A stretch of DNA of 64,000 nt from Branchiostoma lanceolatum (taxonomy: Eukaryota; Chordata; Leptocardii; Amphioxiformes; Branchiostomatidae). The DNA lies in contig NC_089727.1 of assembly GCF_035083965.1 (NCBI RefSeq), positions 419,501 to 483,500 of the forward strand, written 5' to 3'. The notes under the pieces were generated by a model. It saw only the letters and a list, made by a program, of their open reading frames with translations, was not told where the DNA came from and searched no databases. This document shows, piece by piece, positions 10,701-13,700 of this stretch. The position numbers were made by a program, and so were the translations under genes. Every line of letters begins with the position of its first letter. Within the stretch, counting starts at the first letter, position 1.

Positions 10701-13700
10701 GTGGACTGGTTCTGTGAGGAGATAAAGCGGCTGTGCCACCAGGAGCGGCGGCGCGACTTCGTGTCGGAGGCTCACCTCCTCACGCTCGGCAAGTTCATCA
10801 ACATGTTCGCCGTGCTCGACGCCCTCAAGAACATGAAGAGCAGCGTTAAGAACGACTACGCTCAGTACAGGAGGTTAGTTAGTTAACTAGTCAATAACTA
10901 ATCATTAACTAGTCACTAACTAACCAACATTGAGTTAAGAACGACTACGCTCAGTACAGAAGGTTAGTTAACTAGTCAATAACTAATCATTAACTAGTCA
11001 GTTACTAACCAACACTGAGTCAAGAACGACTACGCTCAAAATAGGAGGTTAGTTAACCAGTCACTAACTTAGATTATTAACTAGTCCCTAACCAACACTG
11101 AATCAAGAATGACTACGCTCAGTACAGGAGGTTAGTTAGTTAACTAGTTATTAACTCAGTAACTAACCAACCAATTACTATCCAATACTGAGTCTCAGTA
11201 CAACTGCTCAGTACAAGAGTTAAGCAACTAACTAGTCACTAATTGATCATTAACTAGTCACTAACCAACACTGAATCAAGAACGACTACACTTAGTACAG
11301 GTGGTTAGTTAGTTAACTAGTTATTAACTCAGTAACTAACTAACCAATTACTATCCAATACTGAGTCTCAGTACAACTGCTCAGTACAAGAGTTAAGCAA
11401 CTAACTAGTCACTAATTGATCATTAACTCAGTAAGTAGTCACTAACCAACATTGAGGCAAGAACCTATACTCAATACAGGAGGTTAGCTATTAACTACTC
11501 ACTAGTAATAAGCTATGCACAATATATAAAAGGTGTATCATTTTATGCCAAAGTCTTTTCCCAATAATACTTACGGATCAATTCTAATCAATTACAGCCA
11601 AACCTGTCCAAGTCACCACTCTGCACAGGAACCATCGGGCCTTTGTGGCCTCTTTTGGGTGGTTCCTCATTCACCCCACGCATCAAGAATCCTGCTTATA
11701 GTGTCCACCTGTCTAGAGTGGTTCCCTGAGACATGTTTGGCTGTAATGTGATTATGGTGCATGAGCAGGCTTTTAGTGAGGGTTTACAGACCTGGCGTCC
11801 AAAATTGGGTTTAATGAACAATTATCGGGTATTTTAAACAGGGTGTCCACTATGAGTCCCCGCAAAAGGAGGACGTCTAATTTCTCAGTACAGCAAAAAC
11901 AGTTACTCAAATGTCGTCAACGCGGTAATTTCTTAGTGTAGGGTGCCCAGAAGACGCCCTGACGCCCTGCTAGCTAAAAGCTTGTGCATGAATCATGATG
12001 ATGTGATCAGAAATAATCAGAAGTGTTGATTCCCCTGCTGCTACCGTGACAACCTGTCACCATGACAACCTGTCACCACGACAACCTGTCATCATGACAC
12101 CCCGTCACCGTGACGACCCGTCACCACGGCGACAGGGCGGCCGGGTTCCTGAAGAAGATGGCCGACCCCCAGTCCATCCAGGAGTCACAGAACCTGTCCA
12201 TGGTCCTCGCCAACCACGACAAGATCACCAACACGCTGAAGGAGAAGCTGGAGACCATCCCGGGCTACGAGGAGATCCTGGCCGACGTCATCAACATCTG
12301 CCTGACGTACCTCGACACGCGCATGTACGTCACGCCCGAGGAGAAGCACGTGCTGTTCAAGGTAGGCAGGTGTGGCGAGCACCTGGCGACGGGCGGGGCC
12401 GCCATGGTTACATCGGGGGCAGCACGGTTCACGAGTCATTGTGGAACCTGTTTATGCAGCTCATTCATTCGTTCATCCATTCATTCATTCATTGAATTGA
12501 TTTGTTCAGTCATTCATTTGTTTGTTCATTTGTTCATTCATTCATTGAATTCATTCATTCATTCAGTTGTTCCTTCATTCATCCATTCATTCATTTATTC
12601 ATCTAGTCATTCCTAAACTTGCTCAAAGCCAAAGACTGAAAGTTTGTATTTCTTATGGATTTTTGCCCCACTCCCTGGTACAAACCTGGTTCCAGACTCC
12701 TGACTGAACCCCACGATGTGACCATGTGCACAGCCCTGCCTGCCTACAGTACTGACCGCTCCTCTCCTAACGTGTGTTAACCTGTTTCCCTTCAGAGGGG
12801 CCGGCTTTCTGGGCCGGCTGTCGGACGCCAAGTCCATCCAGGAGTCGCAGAACCTGGTTCTGTTCCTGGCCGAGAACGACAAAATCGTTTCTGCGGTGAA
12901 GGAGAAGTTAGAAACGATCGCGGGGTACGAGGCGATCCTGCTGGAGGTGGTGAACAACTCATGCAGGTTCTATGAGGAGGGCTGGTTTGTCACTCCCGCA
13001 GAGAAACACTTGTTACTGAAGGTGGGTCAGTTCGGCAGGGAACGTTTGGCGCTGGCGGCGGTGATTCCTGCCTGGTGATTCACTCCTGACGCTCTGCTGG
13101 GCCATCGGTCAATCATTATCAATCAATCAATTATCAATCAATCAATCACACCTGCAGAGAAATACTTGTTGTTGAAGGTGAGGGACATTTGGCTGGCGGT
13201 GGGCATGCTGGGGCGGTGATTCACTACGCTCCTCAATCAATCAATCAGCCCGCCAATCAAATGAATCAATCTAATTGTTTAATCAATTGACCACCTCAAT
13301 CAATATTTTTTATCGTTGTGCAATCCATCAGTTGTTCAATCAATCAATCAATAATTAAATTAACCAACCAACCCACCAATCAATCAGACTGGTTACCCTG
13401 ATCCCCTCTAATATCTACAAAGGTGATCTGCAGATCAGTCTATCAATCAATTTATCCATCTCTCAATCAATCATTGAAACCGAAGTATCCTGGTATATCC
13501 ACCAACAATACAAACAAACAAACAGCCAACCAACCAATCATTATATGGTATGATCACTTTCCATGCCAGCACCCTGTCCACCAATCAACAAGAAATCAAC
13601 CAACCAATCAAAAGTCATTATGTTTTAGATCGTTCCATTGTAGTGTGGGCACATATATGAATGCTTTGGACAAGATCTGTCACTATGGTAACATGTTTTT

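Follow-up and report, generated by a model that had tools for sequence, protein, structure and literature searches.

Tandem duplication of an exon can produce a mutually exclusive pair, as with the IIIb and IIIc exons of FGFR2. A different kind of duplication has been described in amphioxus, where "mirages", minisatellites that span exon boundaries, are proposed in the available text of PMC3087553 to give rise to new exons and introns. CYFIP is the component of the actin-building WAVE complex that senses the switch protein Rac1. For human CYFIP1 (Sra1), the accessible part of PMC9481577 places the Rac1 A site at residues 91-108 and 176-215, with R190 as its anchor and a hydrophobic contact to Rac1 at F194, and reports single A-site substitutions that abolish activation of the WAVE complex or, once, mildly sensitise it. 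Here we analyse a 64,000-nucleotide (nt) stretch of the genome of Branchiostoma lanceolatum (contig NC_089727.1, positions 419,501 to 483,500; hereafter the window), in which the CYFIP gene carries two versions of exon 6, termed 6a and 6b. We think it probable that the two are a mutually exclusive exon pair and that they yield two CYFIP proteins with which the WAVE complex likely responds differently to Rac1. The existence of the pair is well supported; the effect on Rac1 is inferred.

The duplicated exon 6

The CYFIP gene lies complete on the plus strand of the window, with 28 exons that encode 1254 amino acids with either exon 6. Its 6a form is identical at 914 of 1255 alignment columns to human CYFIP1. 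The same form differs at 2 residues from the public B. lanceolatum protein P0003 ("CYFIP1 [Branchiostoma lanceolatum]"), and the Branchiostoma floridae-type P0004 differs from the window at 3 residues, besides an 18-residue insert. This narrow margin, together with the complete identity of 6b to its counterpart in the B. lanceolatum protein P0001, makes B. lanceolatum the best fit for the window. P0003 matches the FragX_IP domain (PF05994) of the CYFIP/Sra1 family over residues 342-1225 with 1337.8 bits. An earlier note, written from the letters of the window, had named the gene CYFIP and the animal amphioxus; both identifications are borne out. The features on which the argument depends are as follows.

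7618..36997, plus strand: CYFIP coding region; spliced model aligned to human CYFIP1, followed by a TAG stop and free of internal stops
10692..10873, plus strand: exon 5, whose 3' end supplies the first two bases (AG) of the Arg190 codon
12136..12361, plus strand: exon 6a, residues 191-265, nearer to vertebrate CYFIP than 6b
12362..12795, plus strand: 6a-6b intron, 434 nt, with a (TCAT)n tract at about 12461-12602 and the densest YCAY run of the window
12796..13021, plus strand: exon 6b, alternative residues 191-265; the public protein P0001 joins it directly to exons 5 and 7
13146..13177, plus strand: decayed copy of the exon 6b 3' boundary, a mirage-type repeat, 84% identical over 32 nt
14470..14574, plus strand: exon 7, whose acceptor is common to the 6a and 6b forms

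Exons 6a and 6b are each 226 nt long, have equal phase, open frames and GT-AG sites, and stand 434 nt apart; all of this anatomy, coordinates included, was re-derived as the earlier note had given it. Its figure of about 40 shared residues in 75 proved to be exact (40/75), with 151 of 226 nt (67%) identical, and the shared completion of Arg190 that it described can be read in the sequence, where the first base of the exon yields AGG in the 6a form and AGA in the 6b form. Against a library of PDB sequences, the translation of 6a matches residues 191-265 of human CYFIP1 (E 9.2e-30) and that of 6b matches residues 192-265 (E 3.8e-18); identity to this human segment is 51/75 for 6a and 36/75 for 6b. 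A tblastn search of the window with the human protein, at E values up to 0.01, revealed no second whole exon that had been doubled and had diverged, and the remaining extra matches are exon fragments, most of them within tandem arrays.

The reading frame constrains how the two copies can be used. When exon 5 is joined straight to exon 7 in the spliced model, a stop arises at codon 191, and when both copies are included the frame shifts and a stop is reached at codon 325, inside 6b. Because skipping and double inclusion both give early stops, only 6a alone or 6b alone yields the full protein, as the earlier note had argued from exon length. Messages with early stops are normally degraded by nonsense-mediated decay. 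The locus shows two features of mutually exclusive exons: adjacent homologous exons of the same phase and compatible length have their own splice sites, and the frame breaks if both or neither are used.

Public protein models contain each copy alone in the slot between exons 5 and 7, in agreement with the reading of 6a and 6b as an exon pair. In P0001 ("CYFIP1, partial [Branchiostoma lanceolatum]") exon 6b sits between exons 5 and 7, and in P0003 the same place is taken by 6a; each copy is identical to the window at 75/75 residues, and both proteins are recorded on contigs of equal length. The three B. floridae-type models P0004-P0006, retrieved along with P0003 by the 6a form, all carry 6a (75/75 identical). 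Our survey covered 148 cluster representatives from the best 120 of 298 and the best 120 of 329 matches, with one entry per cluster, so that other members may hide further forms. Among them, 6b occurs once, in P0001, and 147 carry a 6a-like segment; none of the 148 holds both 6a and 6b, and the best identity to 6b outside P0001 is 40/75. When residues 190-265 of the 6b form served as the query, 85 candidates gave 1 match, although such a search is blind to distant relatives and missed even the amphioxus 6a forms. Two fish proteins with unusually high scores, P0002 and P0007, are not carriers of 6b; they contain repeated stretches of their own CYFIP and resemble faults in gene models.

According to the available text of PMC9673378, the published B. 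lanceolatum annotation (BraLan3), from which P0001 and P0003 may come, was built from stage- and organ-specific RNA sequencing assemblies and hint-guided Augustus predictions, with PASA supplying additional isoforms. The public gene model that holds 6b is probably RNA-based. Its partial label and its end in the exon-18 repeat array would suit a transcript assembly more than a purely predicted model. The end of P0001 (SLEL) matches copies of exon 18 in that array and not the full exon 18 (SLDV); the array itself, at 26657-28080 on the plus strand, consists of about 11 copies of a 133-bp unit with the acceptor and the first part of exon 18.

Age, rate and origin of the two copies

The pair is real, coding and present in public gene models, and it is apparently old. 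At the 40 positions where 6a and 6b encode the same residue, 13 codons differ, compared with 16.4 expected if the codons were independent (95% range 11-22), as computed from the gene's own codon usage. By this count the synonymous codons are near saturation, at a protein identity of 53%. Near-saturated synonymous codons together with the 40 of 75 residues kept point to long selection on the pair. Dating the duplication from a synonymous divergence (dS) of 0.89 was dropped, the codon differences being within the range of independent draws. GC content at third codon positions is 0.82 in the gene and 0.99 in exon 6a.

Neutral simulations starting from 6a (3000 runs) ended with no stop and at most 35 residue changes in 1.8, 0.43, 0.03 and 0% of runs at 0.40, 0.45, 0.50 and 0.60 substitutions per site, respectively. 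These longer branches would be the ones that apply because synonymous codons are near saturation, which is an argument and not a measured rate.

For a count of conserved sites, 121 proteins were reduced by six (five from amphioxus, and P0002 because it scored below the cut) to 115, vertebrates by name except two unnamed, which collapse to 21 distinct segments. At 14 sites that are invariant in these non-amphioxus segments and kept in 6a, 6b is changed, and 6 of these sites lie in 191-215. Exon 6a departs from the common residue at 16 other invariant sites, and 6b has the common residue at 3 of those.

The vertebrate representatives retrieved lack 6b, which favours a duplication within the amphioxus lineage, as far as sequence comparison can say. 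By name, no invertebrate outside amphioxus appears among the best 120 of 298 and the best 120 of 329 matches. It is plausible that 6b originated by a tandem duplication of the mirage type, spanning an exon boundary. With a 30-nt probe, at most 4 mismatches and a range of 3 kb, boundary-spanning tandem copies were detected at 15 of the 52 other internal boundaries of the CYFIP gene, and no such copies were detected for 6a or 6b. The decayed copy of the 6b donor is 77% identical over 82 aligned columns, and read-through from its donor hits a stop. A mirage consists of units of high identity across one boundary; 6a and 6b are whole exons that differ at 75 of 226 nt.

Repeats elsewhere in the gene are extensive. 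Long arrays of a 79-bp unit that copies the 3' end and donor of exon 26 occupy 34303-36221 on the plus strand, where 24 copies lie within 4 mismatches of the 30-nt probe. P0005, the isoform X1 of B. floridae type, contains 19 residues of exon 17 twice over and in frame (feature 25708-25948, plus strand), and the window has a second copy of this stretch at 25859-25948. The exon 17 case suggests that a mirage copy can serve as coding sequence. Outside the gene, an open frame on the minus strand (54550-55515) encodes a multi-finger C2H2 zinc-finger protein.

The Rac1 A site, exon choice and competing explanations

Exon 6 encodes residues 191-265, starting directly after R190 and falling partly within the A-site span of 176-215. 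The 6a and 6b forms alike retain R190, F194 and the block 203-210; they differ at 10 of 25 residues in 191-215 and at 25 of 50 in 216-265. With 6a, the Pfam Rac1-binding domain matches residues 61-267 (35.8 bits). Because R190 and F194 are kept, the A site of the 6b form may be retuned and not destroyed; a tuned site is, going by these residues, more likely than a dead one.

Scored with a small matrix built on the gene's own junctions, the 6a acceptor is the weakest of 28 and the 6b acceptor ranks 23 of 28, and the donors of 6a and 6b rank 26 and 24 of 28. The earlier note had described a poor pyrimidine tract before 6a and a strong one before 6b; the first description stands, and the second is softened by the rank of the 6b acceptor, although 13 of the 17 bases in its tract are pyrimidines. 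The density of YCAY in the 6a-6b intron reaches the window's maximum (22 per 150 nt), with another peak, at 12057, that runs from just upstream into 6a. A tunicate provides an example of Nova acting through intronic YCAY clusters, as described in the accessible part of PMC12445529. Hypothetically, then, Nova could control the choice between 6a and 6b, but in a control comparison YCAY ranks only 11th of 64 motif classes for such peaks, the cause being the one (TCAT)n tract. Among 13 listed pairs of inverted repeats, two short pairs bracket 6b (12642-12660 with 13497-13515, and 12512-12524 with 13254-13266). Pairing between the introns around 6b or 6a is not above that of crude dinucleotide-block shuffles, which reached it in 30/60 and 53/60 cases, respectively; a docking structure between the flanking introns is therefore unsupported. 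A second splice choice in the CYFIP gene is likely at 23677-23730 (plus strand), where a 54-nt in-frame cassette exon lies between exons 14 and 15; it is included in P0001, P0004 and P0005 and absent from P0003.

The frame leaves room for one exon 6 per message; messages with both or neither stop early and would normally decay. A tissue-dependent splicing factor might pick either 6a, with the weakest acceptor, or 6b, with a somewhat better one. The 10 changes in 191-215 could retune a low-affinity contact with Rac1 around an unchanged R190 and F194, and selection would keep the pair for the sake of two CYFIP forms. A more ambitious version is also conceivable, although we regard it as rather unlikely: through the two forms, the WAVE complex would exist in two versions that differ in Rac1 threshold or in choice of partners, constituting the first splice-switchable Rac1 activation site there, with the choice made by a neural factor such as Nova through the YCAY-rich tract.

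Some points count against our preferred explanation. Exon 6b is the faster copy, with 20-22 unique changes compared with 4-6 for 6a in six comparisons, and the Pfam Rac1-binding domain match ends at residue 193 in the 6b form (61-193, 32 bits); the faster rate and the shortened match also fit a partial relaxation of constraint. The neutral simulations exclude drift only for a long branch: with 0.20 and 0.30 substitutions per site, 31.9% and 13.8% of runs reproduce the observed outcome. Residues 191-215 carry no net charge in either form. Structure predictions, made from 22-sequence alignments, were unusable, with mean predicted local distance difference test (pLDDT) values of 37.2 for P0001 (6b) and 34.7 for P0006 (6a), and the helices that both models show over exon 6 carry little weight at that pLDDT. 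Furthermore, 6b is found in no second species among the representatives retrieved, the three of B. floridae type carrying 6a, and P0001, a partial model, breaks off within sequence from the exon-18 array. The use of 6b, its exclusivity and any tissue choice rest on annotation, and that annotation also drew on Augustus predictions and aligned B. floridae proteins, as the available text of PMC9673378 indicates.

These points lend some weight to the view that 6b is a duplicate in decay or in rare use, represented mainly by noise transcripts, while 6a does all the work. The 14 invariant sites kept in 6a and changed in the faster 6b would be expected of such a duplicate, as would the 6a-like segment in 147 of 148 representatives, and at short branch lengths drift alone often leaves a frame open. 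Yet 6b has acquired no stop or change in length while its synonymous codons approached saturation, its splice sites are intact, it has kept 40 of 75 residues, it has a better acceptor than 6a, and it appears in a public protein model. We consider decay of 6b improbable. That the pair is an artefact of assembly, with two alleles or gene copies collapsed into one place, is scarcely credible. Amphioxus genomes are highly heterozygous and the CYFIP gene contains many near-identical tandem repeats, but differences at 75 of 226 nt are far beyond those of alleles, and the flanks of the two copies align only through overlapping extracted sequence, simple repeats and matches at chance level. In addition, exon 6 alone is doubled as a whole diverged exon within the window, and a public protein has 6b spliced to exons 5 and 7, the same two that flank 6a.

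Closer to our preferred explanation, in which 6a and 6b are used one at a time, is the case where both exons are used and message decay alone accounts for the exclusivity, without an active regulator. This alternative is nested in the preferred one, so that their chances overlap, and we see it as a real possibility that nonetheless falls short of our expectation. Early stops from double inclusion and from skipping agree with it, as do splice sites that are all ordinary GT-AG and intron pairing that shuffles match (30/60 and 53/60), with no docking structure supported. Nothing direct speaks against it; the two explanations part only over the way in which the exon is chosen.

Significance and comparison with known systems

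The A site is the activating input from Rac1 to the WAVE complex. An exon swap over part of that site, with the anchor kept, would be a natural experiment on the role of its low affinity. The effect on Rac1 signalling is the most interesting part of our interpretation and, at the same time, the part that we infer. More generally, the pair would show a nonvertebrate chordate diversifying CYFIP by splicing, where vertebrates did so through duplicate genes, CYFIP1 and CYFIP2. A further point is the case of a gene rich in boundary-spanning repeats that contains a complete, apparently functional duplicate exon.

In the literature searched, which covered few subscription journals, we found neither a mutually exclusive exon pair in CYFIP nor an exon duplication in amphioxus CYFIP. 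The earlier note knew of no such isoform pair; this agrees with the literature searched but not with sequence databases, where P0001 and P0003 represent the two forms. In a paper on amphioxus muscle transcriptomes (PMC8805411), the table of myoblast fusion genes has one amphioxus CYFIP.

Like the exon pairs of the FGFR2 type, CYFIP 6a and 6b are homologous neighbours that agree in length and phase and are predicted to be used one at a time, with a length that is not a multiple of three, so that the choice is enforced by the frame. Unlike those pairs, the exclusivity in CYFIP is deduced from the frame and two protein models and not from reads. With human CYFIP1/Sra1 (PDB 3p8c, 4n78 and 7usc-7use) the likeness is one of sequence: 6a and 6b align without gaps to residues 191/192-265, and R190 and F194 are kept. 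In contrast to the amphioxus pair, the non-amphioxus CYFIP representatives retrieved have the 6a-like segment only. Finally, the locus resembles mirages in the tandem boundary copies found elsewhere in the CYFIP gene and, in decayed form, at the 3' end of 6b. However, in mirages a single boundary is copied, with units 81-100% alike in BflGb6 according to the text available for PMC3087553, whereas 6b is a whole exon with two splice sites of its own and 67% identity to 6a.
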